A stretch of 64,000 bases of DNA from Pseudomonadota bacterium (GTDB taxonomy: Bacteria; Campylobacterota; Campylobacteria; Campylobacterales; Sulfurospirillaceae). The stretch lies in assembly GCA_017860615.1 (NCBI GenBank), contig JAGDMU010000001.1:1-64000 (forward strand), given 5' to 3'. Positions 19,733 through 53,235 of this stretch are shown here, piece after piece (the first letter of the stretch is position 1; every line of letters starts with the position of its first letter). Under the pieces are notes generated by a model. The model did not search any database. It worked only from the letters and a program-made list of their open reading frames with translations, and had not been told where the DNA came from. The translations under genes were made by a program, and so were the position numbers.

Positions 19733-19744
19733 TTTACATGTAAA
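19733..19744. repeat. Palindrome TTTACATGTAAA, copy 1
   Basis: Exact 12-base palindrome just upstream of the fliL ribosome site. The same sequence recurs at four other places in the window. Confidence 0.8.
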
Positions 19745-46385: not shown

Positions 46386-46871
46386 ATGAGTCGATTATCG
46401 ATTGTGTTAAGTACACTTATCGGCGCATGTATGTTAGTTGGCTGTGCGTCATCTGTACCACAAGAAAAACCTGTCGAGGCGAATAGTGTGGAAGCGGTAT
46501 CTGAAGTTGTTGTGCCAGCAACAAGGATACAAGAAGTCTATTGGAAACTTATTGGCGTGTCTGGGAAAGCGGTGATTGAAGATGCGAATGGACGCGAAGC
46601 CTACATTATTTTAAGAATTGAAGATCGCCGCTTACAAGGCTTTGGCGGGTGTAACATCTTGCTGGGAAGTTATGAATTAAATGAAGCAACTCATAAAGTG
46701 AAATTTTCACGTGTTGCTTCAACGATGATGGCGTGCCCAAGGCTACGCGATGAGTCAGAATTTTTCAAAGCTTTGGAAAAAGTCGAAGAGTACAGCATCG
46801 AAGAGGGTGTTTTATTACTGCAAAAAGAAGGAAAAACCGTAGCAACATTTGAGGCGGTATATCAGCCTTAA
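46386..46871 (+). CDS. META-domain lipoprotein
   Basis: A 161-residue exported lipoprotein. The signal ends in lipobox MLVGC and is followed by a Pro/Glu/Val linker. The C-terminal part (about 55-160) fits a META domain (HslJ-like): YWKLIGVSGKAV, LQGFGGCNILLGSYEL, ASTMMACPR and EFFKALEKVEEY. HslJ-type proteins are linked to envelope stress and antibiotic tolerance. Start ATG has AAGGAGTGAAA. Its end overlaps, tail to tail, the truncated kinase by 4 bases. Confidence 0.85.
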   Translation: MSRLSIVLSTLIGACMLVGCASSVPQEKPVEANSVEAVSEVVVPATRIQEVYWKLIGVSGKAVIEDANGREAYIILRIEDRRLQGFGGCNILLGSYELNEATHKVKFSRVASTMMACPRLRDESEFFKALEKVEEYSIEEGVLLLQKEGKTVATFEAVYQP

Positions 46872-47545
46872 GTTGCGACTTTTTGAGTGCAAAAAGCCTT
46901 TCGTATCTCAAGAAGCGTTTTGGTGTGTTCGCCTAACTCCTCAAGCTCATGTTGCGTCTCCAATGCATTGTATTCTGCAAGAAACAGTAGGTCTTCTATC
47001 AGTTTTTGAAGCGTTTGAATCTCCTCTAATTGTGTTTCCAAAATCGTTTTATACTCTTGCTCTGAGCGCTCTTTTCGCAGGGCTATCTCGATTTCTCCAC
47101 GCATAATGGTCAGAGGCGTGCGTAGTTCATGCGACGCATGGGTGTTAAACTCTTTGACACCATGAAACGCTTTTTCAAGGCGGTCAAGCATTTCATTAAA
47201 GGCAATGGCGAGGTGATTGATCTCATCATTGTAAGGACGTTGCTGTATGCGAAGTGAGAGGTTTTTAGGCGTAATGGTTTTAATCTCTTTGAGCATACTT
47301 TGAATGGGTTGAAAGTATTTTGTGACCAAAACATAGCCGCCAATACTGGATAACAGCAAGATAAAAGGGGTTAATATCCACATTCTCGATAAAAAATGTT
47401 CAACCATTTCATGCGTTTGGTGTGTTTCATAAAATTTTTCATTGAGGTGGTGCTCTATATTGAGGGAAAGTGCGTAGTTGAAACTCGCTAAAATAAGTGC
47501 TTGAATGAGCAAAAACCACAGCAATAATTTAATCTTAATCTGCAT
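46868..47545 (-). CDS. Truncated sensor histidine kinase lacking the ATPase domain
   Basis: A 225-residue protein with two membrane helices (about 6-26 and 57-75), a HAMP segment and a dimerisation domain with His139 in HASHELRTPLTIMRGE. The reading frame ends soon after the second dimerisation helix. The N, G1 and G2 boxes of an HATPase domain are missing, and the following DNA codes for the convergent META lipoprotein. No response regulator is adjacent. It may be a gene remnant or a non-autonomous phosphoacceptor. It overlaps the phosphoesterase gene by 11 bases. Confidence 0.75.
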   Translation of the reverse strand: MQIKIKLLLWFLLIQALILASFNYALSLNIEHHLNEKFYETHQTHEMVEHFLSRMWILTPFILLLSSIGGYVLVTKYFQPIQSMLKEIKTITPKNLSLRIQQRPYNDEINHLAIAFNEMLDRLEKAFHGVKEFNTHASHELRTPLTIMRGEIEIALRKERSEQEYKTILETQLEEIQTLQKLIEDLLFLAEYNALETQHELEELGEHTKTLLEIRKAFCTQKVAT

Positions 47546-48299
47546 GATCGCCCTTTGTTAATGTCACGATTACTACTTCGCTGGGAGCATTAAAACGAAA
47601 GTCAAAACCCCAACTGCCATACCCTGTGGTGACAAAGATTTGCGTTTTGCCTTGTCGGTGTAAGCCTTTTATATAAGGCTGAAAAAGCCGTACGATGTAG
47701 CCAAAAGGGTAAATCTGCCCACCATGGGTATGGCCACTTAGTTGTAGATCAACCGAAAACTGTTGTGCAAAACGAATATCTTTGGGTTGGTGCGCGAGTA
47801 AGATGGACGGCAGTTTTGTGTTCAGTTGTGCAAAAAGCTCTTTTTCGTGACGCTTGATGCCAAAATACCTGCTAAACGCATCGCTAAGACCGATGAGTTG
47901 AAGCGACTCATCGCCTCGATTGAGCGTGATGATACGGTTATCTAAGAGGGTAAAGCCAAGTTTTGAAACCTCAGACGTAAGCTGTTTTCGTGTATAAGCA
48001 AGGTCATGGTTGCCGCTGACAAAATAGACAGGATGCTTGATGCGACTGAGTATTTCAAGGGGTTCTTTGATGTATTTAGCTCTTGCATCGAAAAGATCCC
48101 CCGTAAGAGCGACCATATCGATGTCACGTTCATTGATCTTTGTTACCAAGTTTTCAAGCGCATGTAAGGGCGTTTTAGCGTTTACATGTAAATCACTGAG
48201 ATGTACAATGGTAAAGTTTTCAAAAGAGGTTGGCAGGTTTTTGATGCCAATCCTCAGACTTTTGAAATTCAGCCTCACATACGCTTTTTCAAACATCAT
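47535..48299 (-). CDS. Calcineurin-like metallophosphoesterase, YkuE/UDP-hydrolase-like
   Basis: A 254-residue protein with all metal-binding motifs: HLSDLHVN near residue 33, ALTGDLFDA, VSGNHD and LSGHTHGGQ. The C-terminal TGYGSWGFDFRFNAPSEVVIVTL is typical of the membrane-associated YkuE-like group, which acts on phospholipid or nucleotide-sugar diphosphates. Substrate unknown. It lies 8 bases after the YceI gene. Confidence 0.88.
   Translation of the reverse strand: MMFEKAYVRLNFKSLRIGIKNLPTSFENFTIVHLSDLHVNAKTPLHALENLVTKINERDIDMVALTGDLFDARAKYIKEPLEILSRIKHPVYFVSGNHDLAYTRKQLTSEVSKLGFTLLDNRIITLNRGDESLQLIGLSDAFSRYFGIKRHEKELFAQLNTKLPSILLAHQPKDIRFAQQFSVDLQLSGHTHGGQIYPFGYIVRLFQPYIKGLHRQGKTQIFVTTGYGSWGFDFRFNAPSEVVIVTLTKGDHAD
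48181..48192. repeat. Palindrome TTTACATGTAAA, copy 2
   Basis: Exact copy, inside the phosphoesterase coding region. A near copy (TTTACATGTAAC) lies in the neighbouring YceI gene at 48573-48584. Confidence 0.8.
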
Positions 48300-48307
48300 T
48301 GACTCTT

Positions 48308-48847
48308 TTATTTTTTTGCTAAAGCTAGGTCGTAAGAGATGGCAACTTCATCACGTACACTTAAAAAAAGTAAGGTTGGTGGCTCGATGCCAAAGTCTGT
48401 CATTTTGATGCTAAAGCCACCTTTGAGTTTTAGAAGATCGTTTTGCTCTGTAATATCAGCTTTTGTGTCAATCTCTTTGATCTGTTTGTTGAGGGAGAGT
48501 ACGCCTAGAAGATGGTAGCCATCCGCCTCTTTTTTGACCTCTTTCAGCGTAAACGTCGTGATGGGATGTTCTTTTACATGTAACGTTTCGTGCATGTGTT
48601 CATCACGCTTTTCATTCTCGCTTTTAAGGTTTATAAGCTCCATTGAGATATCACCCTTAAGCGATTCTAGCGTTTCGTTCATAGTGAGTTTGGTTGTAAT
48701 GTGGCTGCATTTTGGTGCAATGTTGCTGTCGCCTAAAATCTCTGTTTGGGCCCCAATAAAACCCTCTTTATAATTAACCTCACGAGCGAAAGAGGCACTG
48801 GTAAGAAGGGAGGTTGCAAGAACGGCTAACGCGATTTTACTGAACAT
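48308..48847 (-). CDS. YceI-family periplasmic protein
   Basis: A 179-residue secreted protein: signal peptide to about residue 19 (TSASFA), then a lipocalin-like YceI domain. Family members bind polyisoprenoids or other long-chain lipids in the periplasm. Typical segments are the strand pattern around KGDISMELINLKSEN, HETLHVKEHPITTFTL and GVLSLNKQIKEID. The ATG at 48847 follows AAAAAAGGATCAACA and overlaps the preceding gene by 11 bases. Confidence 0.88.
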   Translation of the reverse strand: MFSKIALAVLATSLLTSASFAREVNYKEGFIGAQTEILGDSNIAPKCSHITTKLTMNETLESLKGDISMELINLKSENEKRDEHMHETLHVKEHPITTFTLKEVKKEADGYHLLGVLSLNKQIKEIDTKADITEQNDLLKLKGGFSIKMTDFGIEPPTLLFLSVRDEVAISYDLALAKK

Positions 48848-49838
48848 TGTTGATCCTTTTTTGAGAAGTTTGATAAATAAAACTATAAAATTCGGTACAT
48901 AAAAGCACACAAATCATCATAACACCCACATAGGTGTAGCCTCCTAGCGCACTCATAAGTCCGCCACCACCTGCGATCCAGCCTGTAAAGACCATAATCA
49001 TGCCAAGCAATCTAAGATTGCCTAGTTTTGAGAGTCGTTTCATAATGATAAAGTTGTAGTATGAGATGACAAAAGGGTAAATCATACTTAAAAGCACTGC
49101 TTCACGCGCGGCGTAGAGCATGTAACTGAGTGCAAATAAAAGAGCGATGATAAACGAGTGATGCTCCCTAAGTGTGTCACGAACCAGATACGCCACCCCC
49201 ATTCCCACGAGGTGAAACATCAAAATGATGTGCCATGTCTCCGCCCTCCAAATAGAGATGTCAGAACTTCGTGACAGTGTTTCAAAAAGATTGGCATCTA
49301 AAAATGCCCAAACCGCCATCGCTAAAACTGCATAGATACTCAGGCTTTCAGGCTCAATTTCTACGTCAAGATTTGGCAAACGGTGGATAAAAAAGCTACA
49401 TGTAAACGCAATAAGTGAGAGTGCAATGGCAAGATTGCCCCGCAAAATGGGATCATACGTAAAGAGTGCCGTAGCAAGGGCATAGGTAACCCCAAGGGCT
49501 ATGGCGATTTCTGTGTAGCGACCTTTGGTAAATTTAATGAGCAGTGGTGCGCTCATGCCAAGGCTGATGCCAAGAGCGCCCAAAACCACAAGGTTCAAAG
49601 AGGGGTAAAAGAGCGAACAGAGTGCTTGAAGCCCTACAAAAAAGATGATCTTTTTCTGATCGGTATTCAGCCAGCCAAATGAACGATACACCAGTAAACT
49701 TCCCAGAATGCCACCGAGTGGAAGGGTAAAGAAGGCGTGGATGTCTGAGTGAAACACTTCAATAATTCCTGTTTGTGCGATGAGCAAATAGTAACAAAAC
49801 TCACTCGCGACAAAGAGTGTAAAAAGGGCATTAAACAT
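48837..49838 (-). CDS. Polytopic membrane protein, function unknown
   Basis: A 333-residue inner-membrane protein with about 10 helices and an arrangement resembling a short major-facilitator protein, though I recognise no family signature. Histidines sit at helix ends (HSDIHAFF, ETWHIILMFH, REHHSFI). ATG at 49838 follows GAAAGGAGGCTTT, and the gene overlaps its neighbours by 8 and 11 bases, so it is firmly within the operon. It may assist the heme-copper-like protein encoded just before it, but that is inference. Confidence 0.7.
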   Translation of the reverse strand: MFNALFTLFVASEFCYYLLIAQTGIIEVFHSDIHAFFTLPLGGILGSLLVYRSFGWLNTDQKKIIFFVGLQALCSLFYPSLNLVVLGALGISLGMSAPLLIKFTKGRYTEIAIALGVTYALATALFTYDPILRGNLAIALSLIAFTCSFFIHRLPNLDVEIEPESLSIYAVLAMAVWAFLDANLFETLSRSSDISIWRAETWHIILMFHLVGMGVAYLVRDTLREHHSFIIALLFALSYMLYAAREAVLLSMIYPFVISYYNFIIMKRLSKLGNLRLLGMIMVFTGWIAGGGGLMSALGGYTYVGVMMICVLLCTEFYSFIYQTSQKRINNVQ

Positions 49839-51408
49839 AAAGCCTCCTTTCAAATTTTGATGCAAACATAACATAAACAGATGCAAAGACGAGGTCATAC
49901 ACAGCGATGAGCATCGCTTCAATGCCCAATTGATGGGAAAGATAAAGCGATAAAAACATAGCTGAAACGGCGATGCGGTTAAATGCGCTTATTTTGGCGA
50001 GGATGAGCGCATTGGAGGGTTGTAGCAAACCAAAGAGGTGAATGATGCCCGTTGTTGTCATAAATGCAAAGACGATGTACTCGTACTTTCCTTCAAATCC
50101 AAATCCCAAAAGTGGGTAAAGTGTTGCGGCAAAAACAAATAAAAAGATACCACCAAGAGCATCAGAAAGAAAGCCCGTAAGATGGTAGAGTCTTAGCGCA
50201 TCAAGTTTTTCCACACCAAGCCCTAACTGCGGATAGAAAAAGCCGATGGTCACGAGAATGATGAACAAACCACACAGCATTCGAATCGTCCACAAAAGGT
50301 TGATGTCCGCTTGCATAAAGCCCGCTTCCATCATGCCAGCTATAGAAAGCGCAATGAGCATGAGCGTAAAGCCTAGTGTGTAAAAGAAGCTAAAAGCTTT
50401 TTGGTTGAGCTTTGTAAGATACGGTGAAACAACAGCCATTGCCATAAAAAAGATGTTAACACCCATCGCGATGTGTGCGTGTGCCACAACAAGGTCATTG
50501 CGGTGAAATAGCCAGCGAATGGAAGGGATAAACAAAATATTTCCCTCGATGTCCACAAATAAAAATGAATAGACAGCGATGATGAGGAAAGGATTGTTTT
50601 TAAACGTGATCTTCGCATCACTGAGCCATTTAATCAAAAGAGGCACATAACAAAGGGTAAGGTACTGGAAAAACCACTCTTGGTTGTAGCTAAGATCATC
50701 TATAAAAATGCGGTGTGCAACCGAAGCGATGTACCCCACAAGAGGGATAATCCACATAGCAAGGTACTTCGCCACAAACGTCTCTTTGGCATGGAGTTTG
50801 ATAAGCAGGTAAAAGAGTGGAATAAGCGTATAACTCATACCCAGTGTATTGTCTCCATGCGGTCCTACGATGGTTTTTTCCACTTGTCCGATAACGGGGT
50901 TCATAAGTACCAAAAGCGCGATAGGCGAAGCGATGACAAGGTATAAAGAGACTTTGATCCAGAGCGGAATGACCTTGTACTCTTTGATGTAGTCATACAG
51001 CGCTAAGATGTAAAAAACACCTGAAAAGGCGAGAATGAAGTTGAGTTCATACGCAAAGTCATAAAAGACTAGCCCACGGTGAACGCCCATCAAAAGGCTA
51101 ATGGTCATAAAGACTAAAAAGATGCACCAGAGCGTAAAGTAGGTTTTTAGTTTTTCAAGCCCTTTTTCGCTGTGGATGTTCTCTTTTTCCATCAAAACAA
51201 ACGGTAAAAAAGAGAGCATTAACGGCACAAAGCCATAGAGCATCAACGAGACATGCACACTTCTAGCATTGACCGCTGAGAGTGTAGAGGAGGGCAGAAA
51301 GTGTCCCAAAAGATTGAGCGAATACTCGAACCCAAATGCCAAGCCAAGCACTAAAAAGAGTGCGCTTATCGCAAAAGCTTTTTGTATAAAACTAGAGAAT
51401 TTTTCCAT
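49831..51408 (-). CDS. Heme-copper oxidase subunit I-like membrane protein, atypical
   Basis: A 525-residue protein with about 12-14 helices. Compared by eye with CcoN and NorB, heme ligands are kept: His52 in NARSVHVSLMLYGF, and His310 and His312 in VVAHAH, with a further His302 at the same spacing as in NorB. Of the three copper or iron ligands, His184 (GPHGDN) and His232 (VAHRIF) fit, but the second His of the usual HH pair is Arg233. So heme binding looks likely, while oxygen or NO reduction is in doubt. No cytochrome c subunit is nearby. Start follows GAGGTAAAAG. Confidence 0.7.
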   Translation of the reverse strand: MEKFSSFIQKAFAISALFLVLGLAFGFEYSLNLLGHFLPSSTLSAVNARSVHVSLMLYGFVPLMLSFLPFVLMEKENIHSEKGLEKLKTYFTLWCIFLVFMTISLLMGVHRGLVFYDFAYELNFILAFSGVFYILALYDYIKEYKVIPLWIKVSLYLVIASPIALLVLMNPVIGQVEKTIVGPHGDNTLGMSYTLIPLFYLLIKLHAKETFVAKYLAMWIIPLVGYIASVAHRIFIDDLSYNQEWFFQYLTLCYVPLLIKWLSDAKITFKNNPFLIIAVYSFLFVDIEGNILFIPSIRWLFHRNDLVVAHAHIAMGVNIFFMAMAVVSPYLTKLNQKAFSFFYTLGFTLMLIALSIAGMMEAGFMQADINLLWTIRMLCGLFIILVTIGFFYPQLGLGVEKLDALRLYHLTGFLSDALGGIFLFVFAATLYPLLGFGFEGKYEYIVFAFMTTTGIIHLFGLLQPSNALILAKISAFNRIAVSAMFLSLYLSHQLGIEAMLIAVYDLVFASVYVMFASKFERRLYV

Positions 51409-52018
51409 CTTTTACCTCGATAATTTTGTCTGCATACTCGGACACCTTTCGGTCATGTGTCGCGATGATAATGGTTGTGCCACTTTTGGAGAGCGTTTTG
51501 AAAAGCTCATAGATATTTTGCGAATTGTGTGAGTCTAGGTTACCTGTTGGCTCATCGGCGAAGAGAATTTTGGGTGAGTTCACCAATGCCCTGACAATGG
51601 CGGCACGTTGGCGTTGACCGCCAGAAATCTCATCGGGGTATTTGTCTTTGATGGCTTCGATGCCACATTGTTTAAAGAGTGTGTCGATGTAGGTGCTTTT
51701 TTTGTTAATGGCAGCAAGCTTGATGTTCTCTAAAATCGTTAAATATCCGATGAGGTAGTGAAACTGGAAGATAAACCCCACCTCTTTTTGACGAAACGCA
51801 TCGATGTCTTTGATAAGTGTGTACGCCTTGCCCTCGAAAAAGAGTTCGCCATGACTTGGGCGTAACAGTGAAGAAAGGATAGAGAGTAGGGTGGATTTAC
51901 CACTGCCACTTTCTCCCACAATAGCGATAAAGTCGCCACGTCTGGCTTCAAAGTTGACGTTATCTAGGGCTAGGTCATTTTTGTAGTAGTGTGTAATGCC
52001 GCCAGCTTGAAGTATCAT
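51392..52018 (-). CDS. ABC transporter ATPase, LolD/MacB type
   Basis: A 208-residue ATPase with Walker A GESGSGKSTLLSILS, Q-loop FIFQFHYLIGYLTILENI, signature ISGGQRQRAAIVRAL and Walker B ILFADEPTGNLDS. The pattern is that of LolD/MacB/FtsE ATPases that pull on the envelope rather than move solutes through the membrane. It overlaps the permease gene by 4 bases and the oxidase-like gene by 17. Confidence 0.92.
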   Translation of the reverse strand: MILQAGGITHYYKNDLALDNVNFEARRGDFIAIVGESGSGKSTLLSILSSLLRPSHGELFFEGKAYTLIKDIDAFRQKEVGFIFQFHYLIGYLTILENIKLAAINKKSTYIDTLFKQCGIEAIKDKYPDEISGGQRQRAAIVRALVNSPKILFADEPTGNLDSHNSQNIYELFKTLSKSGTTIIIATHDRKVSEYADKIIEVKDGKIL

Positions 52019-53097
52019 AGCGCACCCCTTTGAATAAGGATGATCGGGTCGATCTTTGATGCGCTATACGCTGGAAGAAGTGCGCCTAAAAGTGCCATAA
52101 ATAGAGAGAAGCAAAAAACAGAAATGATAGTTTCTAAACTCAGCTCTCCATTCACATAGCCTTGAAACTTCTCGATGTGTGCGATCATAAACAGAAGCGC
52201 TTTAGAGAAGAGCAGTGCTGAGATAAAGCCAACGCACGTGATAACAAACGTCTCACCAACGACCATCGTTATGATGAAATTCGACGATTTACCAATGGCT
52301 CTTAAAATGCCAAACTCGCTTCTTCGCTCATTGATCGTAATGCTAATGAGGCTCGCAATCCCAAGCAGTCCCATCAAAAAAGCCACGGCACTAATGACAT
52401 TGGATGAGGTTTCGATGATCTTGAATTGATTGTAATTGTCCACAAACTCATGCGTGGTTTTGGCTTCAATGTCTAAGCTTAACGCGTTGATGTTTTCAAT
52501 AAGTGTGTTGGCTTCATGTCCTCGCTCCATACTCACAAGCAAGATAGACGCTTCTTTGTTAAAGATGGCACTCGCATCCTCACGGTTTAAAACAGCACCA
52601 CCGTCTTCAAAGCCCACGCCGTTTTCAAAGATGCCTGAAACGCTGAACGTTTTGTTTGAAATAGAGACAAATTTGGGTGCATGAAGTCTTGCATTGATAT
52701 TTTTACCAAGAATGACTTCGCCCTTTTTTGGGTAAGCTCCTTCAGTAAGAGTGTAGGTTTTAAAGCGGTTTTCACTGACACCATAGATCGCTGCGATGGG
52801 TAGGTCGTTAATCGGGGAAGCCCCTAAAATGAGCGCATAGACCTCTTTAACCCCTGAGATAGTTTTGATTTTATCTGCGAGTGAGACGTTGACATCGCTG
52901 AAAAAGGTATCGGCGATTTTGGCTTGTGTGACGATGATGTCACCCTCGGTTTTAAGCATCGTGGAGTACATACCGATGATGCCCCGTGAAATCGACGTTA
53001 TCATAAAGATAGCCGTGATAGCAACGGTGATGCTTGTGTAAATAAGAAATGTTTTAAAGCGATTACGATTCAGCGCTTTGAAAAAAAGTCCAATCAA
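52015..53097 (-). CDS. ABC transporter permease, MacB/LolC (FtsX-like) family
   Basis: A 360-residue permease: first helix at about 17-40, a periplasmic MacB core domain to about 235, then three helices (SAVAFLMGLLGIASLISI, a middle one, and MALLGALLPAYSASKIDPI at the end). ERRSEFGILRAIGKS is the coupling motif. Such pumps extrude lipoproteins, peptides or siderophores. I chose the TTG at 53097 because AAGGA lies 6 bases ahead and the longer ORF to 53220 adds a non-homologous stretch. First gene of the operon. Confidence 0.85.
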   Translation of the reverse strand: MIGLFFKALNRNRFKTFLIYTSITVAITAIFMITSISRGIIGMYSTMLKTEGDIIVTQAKIADTFFSDVNVSLADKIKTISGVKEVYALILGASPINDLPIAAIYGVSENRFKTYTLTEGAYPKKGEVILGKNINARLHAPKFVSISNKTFSVSGIFENGVGFEDGGAVLNREDASAIFNKEASILLVSMERGHEANTLIENINALSLDIEAKTTHEFVDNYNQFKIIETSSNVISAVAFLMGLLGIASLISITINERRSEFGILRAIGKSSNFIITMVVGETFVITCVGFISALLFSKALLFMIAHIEKFQGYVNGELSLETIISVFCFSLFMALLGALLPAYSASKIDPIILIQRGAL

Positions 53098-53166
53098 GAA
53101 AATTCCTTGCGAGTAATAATTTAATGACAATTTTAGAAAACAAAGATGAACTGAGTATGAATTTTG

Positions 53167-53178
53167 TTTACATGTAAA
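53167..53178. repeat. Palindrome TTTACATGTAAA, copy 3
   Basis: Exact copy in the divergent spacer between the ABC permease and exonuclease genes, about 70 bases before the permease start, where an operator could sit. Confidence 0.8.
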
Positions 53179-53235
53179 ACATTTGAAAGCAAGATTGACG
53201 TACAATGAGATGATAATCACGCACGAAGGCGCGCC

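Follow-up and report, generated by a model that had tools for sequence, protein, structure and literature searches.

A co-inherited operon of Campylobacterota encodes an ABC pair, an oxidase-fold membrane protein and a YceI lipocalin

What task is served by an operon that places a lipid-type ABC pump beside a protein resembling a respiratory oxidase? The locus lies in the window, the whole 64,000-nucleotide stretch of DNA that was analysed, from a genome placed in the same genus as Sulfurospirillum diekertiae and S. cavolei. Seven minus-strand open reading frames, all of them present, occupied positions 53097 to 46868. Six of the junctions were overlaps or gaps of at most 8 bp, which bore out the earlier note's description of a tightly packed seven-gene operon. 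In the order of the operon, the features were as follows.

53098..53235, no strand: divergent intergenic region of 138 bp between the operon and an exonuclease gene, with a TTACATGTAA palindrome at 53168-53177
52015..53097, minus strand: ABC permease of the FtsX/MacB_PCD type, 360 aa (Pfam FtsX 1.4e-18, MacB_PCD 2.6e-9); 4 bp overlap with the ATPase gene
51392..52018, minus strand: LolD-like ABC ATPase, 208 aa (ABC_tran 9.3e-33); 17 bp overlap with the oxidase-like gene
49831..51408, minus strand: oxidase-fold (COX1/CcoN-like) membrane protein, 525 aa (Pfam COX1 8e-10); 8 bp overlap with the polytopic gene
48837..49838, minus strand: polytopic protein, 333 aa, predicted compact MFS fold (no Pfam family); 11 bp overlap with the YceI gene
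48308..48847, minus strand: periplasmic lipocalin of the YceI family with an apparent signal peptide, 179 aa (Pfam YceI 1.3e-15); 8 bp gap to the phosphoesterase gene
47535..48299, minus strand: calcineurin-like phosphoesterase (YaeI/LpxG-like), 254 aa (Metallophos 1.5e-17); 11 bp overlap with the kinase stub gene
46868..47545, minus strand: sensor-kinase stub, 225 aa, HAMP and HisKA without HATPase_c (Pfam domains)

The permease start at 53097 was a TTG codon, giving a length common to several relatives; the frame was extendable to 53220. The core products were predicted from their sequences to be inner-membrane and periplasmic proteins, plus the cytoplasmic ATPase.

Of 397 Campylobacterota genomes sampled (one genome per species), 60 had strong homologues of the oxidase-like protein, and a threshold of E<=0.001 gave 62, two of them marginal. 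No match was found among plasmid records. Neighbouring genes were scored by tblastn within 6 kb of the oxidase-like gene in 60 loci. Some of these are duplicates, one genome being represented in two collections, and the independent genomes are somewhat fewer. The permease, ATPase and polytopic genes were all near the oxidase-like gene in 59 loci, and the sixtieth (L091) lay at a contig end and began inside the oxidase-like gene. YceI was nearby in 58 loci. Of two further enzymes, a calcineurin-like phosphoesterase and an MBL-fold hydrolase, 57 loci had one or the other nearby and none had both. With neighbours this constant, the gene order is not due to chance. Absence of co-occurrence elsewhere had been named beforehand as the result that would speak against the operon; instead, the oxidase-fold protein, YceI and a phosphoesterase proved to be widely associated and co-inherited with the MacB/Lol-type pump. 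In 20 sampled genomes of the same families without the oxidase-like gene, FtsX matches were weak, none exceeding 37 bits, and the polytopic protein had no convincing orthologue, so the core genes are retained or lost together. The divergence of the oxidase-like protein correlated with that of the permease (r=0.96), the polytopic protein (0.95) and YceI (0.86), against permutation maxima below 0.24; these correlations reflect common ancestry in part because the loci are related by descent. As judged by these comparisons of sequences, the core of permease, ATPase, oxidase-fold protein, MFS-fold protein and YceI is co-inherited. Literature searches for the gene combination gave no match among the papers covered, in agreement with the earlier note, which could not assign it to a known system. 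A protein of about 150 aa without a family was encoded at many loci and was absent from Sulfurospirillum. At single loci, the polytopic gene was broken up by inserted ORFs (L097) or the oxidase-like gene was split in two pieces (L094).

The oxidase-like protein was modelled with AlphaFold2 from 12 sequences (pLDDT 72, pTM 0.70). VIA-align matched the model to 4xyd_A (Z 25.4, rmsd 4.3, 372 aligned) and 9g6b_A (Z 24.3, rmsd 4.5, 383 aligned). The CcoN/cNOR match was confined to residues 1-406 (about 1-400), in which the predicted structure had the 12-TM subunit I fold of the haem-copper superfamily, and the C-terminal extension, of some four helices, lay outside it. Six histidines (52, 184, 302, 310, 312 and 457) were invariant across 58 homologues, and they included the haem ligands expected in TM2 (H52) and in the HxH of TM10 (H310 and H312). 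In a profile alignment with Campylobacterota CcoN, whose local registers are approximate (global mode, 57% probability), H52, H302, D305, H310 and H312 fell on haem-site residues, D186 took the position of the Cu_B histidine of TM6, and the histidine pair of TM7 was unmatched. Independently of this alignment, no conserved histidine was found between residues 185 and 301 among the 58 homologues. The interval from H184 to H302 thus lacks the three Cu_B (or Fe_B) histidines of TM6/TM7. In the haem-copper superfamily, the binuclear site is the defining feature. The label “heme-copper-like” was misleading, because conserved Cu_B histidines are absent, and a classical O2 or NO reductase is unlikely on these sequences. 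The retained ligands suggest two haems. Fully invariant residues made up 30% of the periplasmic third of the core vs 10% of the cytoplasmic third, under an assumed N-in topology.

Membership of a characterised reductase family, the other counter-result named beforehand, was likewise not borne out: the protein scored only 21.4 bits against the NCBIfam ccoN equivalog TIGR00780 (cut-off 583) and had no match among PDB sequences. True CcoN was found in 381 of the 397 genomes, including relatives with the operon. The oxidase-like protein is thus no substitute for the oxidase, and replacement of a lost CcoN was rejected as its general role. The source genome itself (G000) had no detected ccoN, which could mean loss or an assembly gap; all other sampled Sulfurospirillum were positive. 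Apparent ATPase-oxidase fusions, seen as long open frames in G074, G237 and G393, were an artefact of overlapping frames. A second COX1-like protein of 425 aa with a weak Pfam match was encoded elsewhere in the genome (L099, 961-2238).

The ABC pair resembled LolCDE and MacB-type systems in its FtsX-type permease with MacB_PCD and its LolD-like ATPase, in which the Walker A/B and signature motifs were visible. Unlike those systems, it had a single permease, which scored 52 bits against the LolC/E equivalog (cut-off 362) and did not reach the MacB cut-off. The ATPase matched the LolD profile at 2.8e-57, with 194 bits against an equivalog cut-off of 308. The N-terminal NBD fused to the permease and the MacA partner that mark MacB were not found in the operon, where the ATPase was separate. 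Better MacB-like and LolCE-like permeases were located elsewhere in the source genome, which also had other pairs of FtsX-type permease and ATPase (L142, 485-3293; L105, 794-3369); one of these two pairs adjoined a protein whose CPICGM motif resembles that of NosL.

The polytopic protein gave no family in profile searches. Its AlphaFold2 model (pLDDT 78.5) aligned with SotB (6kki; VIA-align Z 25.7, rmsd 3.0, 303 aligned), so the protein listed earlier simply as polytopic can be described more precisely as having a predicted MFS fold. The closest solved chains to YceI were PA0423, E. coli YceI and the polyisoprenoid-binding protein 5w37. The phosphoesterase matched the YaeI (2.3e-31) and LpxG (3e-27) profiles, both under the cut-off. 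Downstream, an EptA-type phosphoethanolamine transferase followed the operon in 8 Arcobacteraceae-type loci, accompanied in 5 of them by a small candidate DgkA, judged by its appearance. At two loci (L058 and L062), a candidate cytochrome b561, likewise judged by appearance, followed the kinase.

The last gene of the operon had been called a kinase remnant. The stub was indeed truncated relative to full-length kinases, with two TM segments, a shrunk sensor loop, HAMP and a HisKA with its H-box, and HATPase_c was absent. The same reduced form, with an invariant SHELRTPLT box in HisKA, was found in 11 Sulfurospirillum sequences. Pairwise dN/dS against the window was 0.07-0.17 where calculable, with dS often near saturation. 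A decaying pseudogene was therefore rejected, and the alignment and dN/dS indicate that purifying selection acts on the stub in the Sulfurospirillum sequences compared. A full response regulator and kinase closed the operon in Arcobacteraceae and in L067, a genome from the same family as the window. The Arcobacteraceae pair scored best against the CzcR/CopR and CzcS/CopS models, under the subfamily cut-offs, and its kinase, to which the stub aligned, carried its own periplasmic loop. The likeness to CopRS/CusRS-type systems thus held for Arcobacteraceae, whereas Sulfurospirillum had no adjacent response regulator, no HATPase_c and a reduced loop. Of the regulators left in the genome that contains the window, the best was 55% identical to that of L067 and adjoined a kinase and an EptA-type transferase, so the operon's own regulator appears to have been lost. 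At many loci, the core was present without an adjacent regulator or kinase.

Taken as a whole, the operon probably encodes an uncharacterised envelope-maintenance system and not a respiratory enzyme. The nearest precedent was LcoA (cytochrome b561) and BcnA (YceI lipocalin) of Burkholderia, which protect against lipid peroxyl radicals (PMC9113575). Both systems would pair a membrane haem-b protein with a periplasmic YceI lipocalin. The haem protein of the present operon has the oxidase fold and not that of b561, no cytochrome b561 partner was matched by Pfam in the window's operon, and the operon adds an ABC pump, an MFS-fold protein and a phosphoesterase. By this analogy, we tentatively read the operon as a module for envelope lipid redox or repair, with a probability somewhat short of even. 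The working model takes LcoA-BcnA, exchanges its haem protein for another and adds a pump. The oxidase-fold protein would be a di-haem b protein lacking Cu_B; its electrons would come from menaquinol and would be handed over at the periplasmic face. YceI would carry a polyisoprenoid, quinone or damaged lipid to be reduced, and the ABC pair would drive extraction or transfer, out of the inner membrane, of this lipid or of whatever carries it. A lipid phosphoester would be processed by the phosphoesterase or, in other lineages, by the MBL hydrolase, and in Arcobacteraceae the CopRS-like pair may regulate the operon. More doubtful is the specific proposal that an oxidase scaffold, having lost its copper site, now works solely as a membrane electron donor when the lipocalin and the pump handle lipids or quinones. 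The redox or lipid-quinone task suggested by the earlier note is plausible. The lipid reading is favoured by the conserved, all-or-none core with matching divergence, by the CcoN/cNOR fold with haem ligands but no Cu_B and with its invariant periplasmic residues, and by the LcoA-BcnA precedent together with the EptA/DgkA-like lipid context. The EptA adjacency, seen in part of Arcobacteraceae only, could be incidental, and the model leaves the ~150-aa protein and the MFS-fold protein without a role.

The CopRS-like regulator could equally be a sign of metal stress, and it supports homeostasis of metals or metal cofactors, in which the ABC pair and the oxidase-fold and MFS-fold proteins would handle envelope copper or haem. 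Directly upstream, L067 also had a further ABC gene and a gene weakly resembling NosL. However, the NosL link occurred at this one locus, the regulator and kinase fell short of the subfamily cut-offs, regulators of this type serve many stresses, and YceI proteins bind isoprenoid lipids; we consider metal handling rather unlikely. The same two-component genes would take another meaning if the oxidase-fold protein bound O2 or NO at an open high-spin haem and reported to them, with the pump as output. The retained proximal ligand without Cu_B, the full pair in Arcobacteraceae and the selected TM-HAMP-HisKA stub are consistent with such a sensor, but persistence of the core where no regulator or kinase adjoins it, and the full kinase's own periplasmic loop, make it unlikely.

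The permease and ATPase domains alone would suit an exporter of drugs or peptides of the MacB type, whose neighbours would then be incidental. This is improbable, since the operon holds neither MacA nor TolC, the NBD is unfused and the neighbours are evidently not incidental, given their constancy and their joint absence from the 20 relatives. A haem-copper terminal oxidase or NO reductase, such as a gNOR-like one, shares the fold of residues 1-400 and the haem ligands of CcoN/NorB, and yet it is the least credible reading and very improbable. The Cu_B/Fe_B histidines are missing, D186 stands in TM6, C-terminal helices are added, and no cytochrome c subunit gene was recognised in the operon, whose context is ABC and YceI. 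A strictly conserved branch with haem but not copper ligands, and bound to an ABC pump of the lipid type, would put the fold to a new use. The operon also offers a testable candidate for the way in which envelope lipids are protected or moved in free-living Campylobacterota.

The TTACATGTAA palindrome of the intergenic region was not confined to it. It occurred at window positions 19734, 48182, 48574, 53168, 55314, 58389 and 58908 (7 vs 0.15 expected) and 238 times in the genome, vs 4 for the reversed control. Sulfurospirillum loci carried roughly 50 copies per 100 kb; L067 had 3 copies, and the loci of other families had none. As with highly iterated palindromes, some copies lay within genes.
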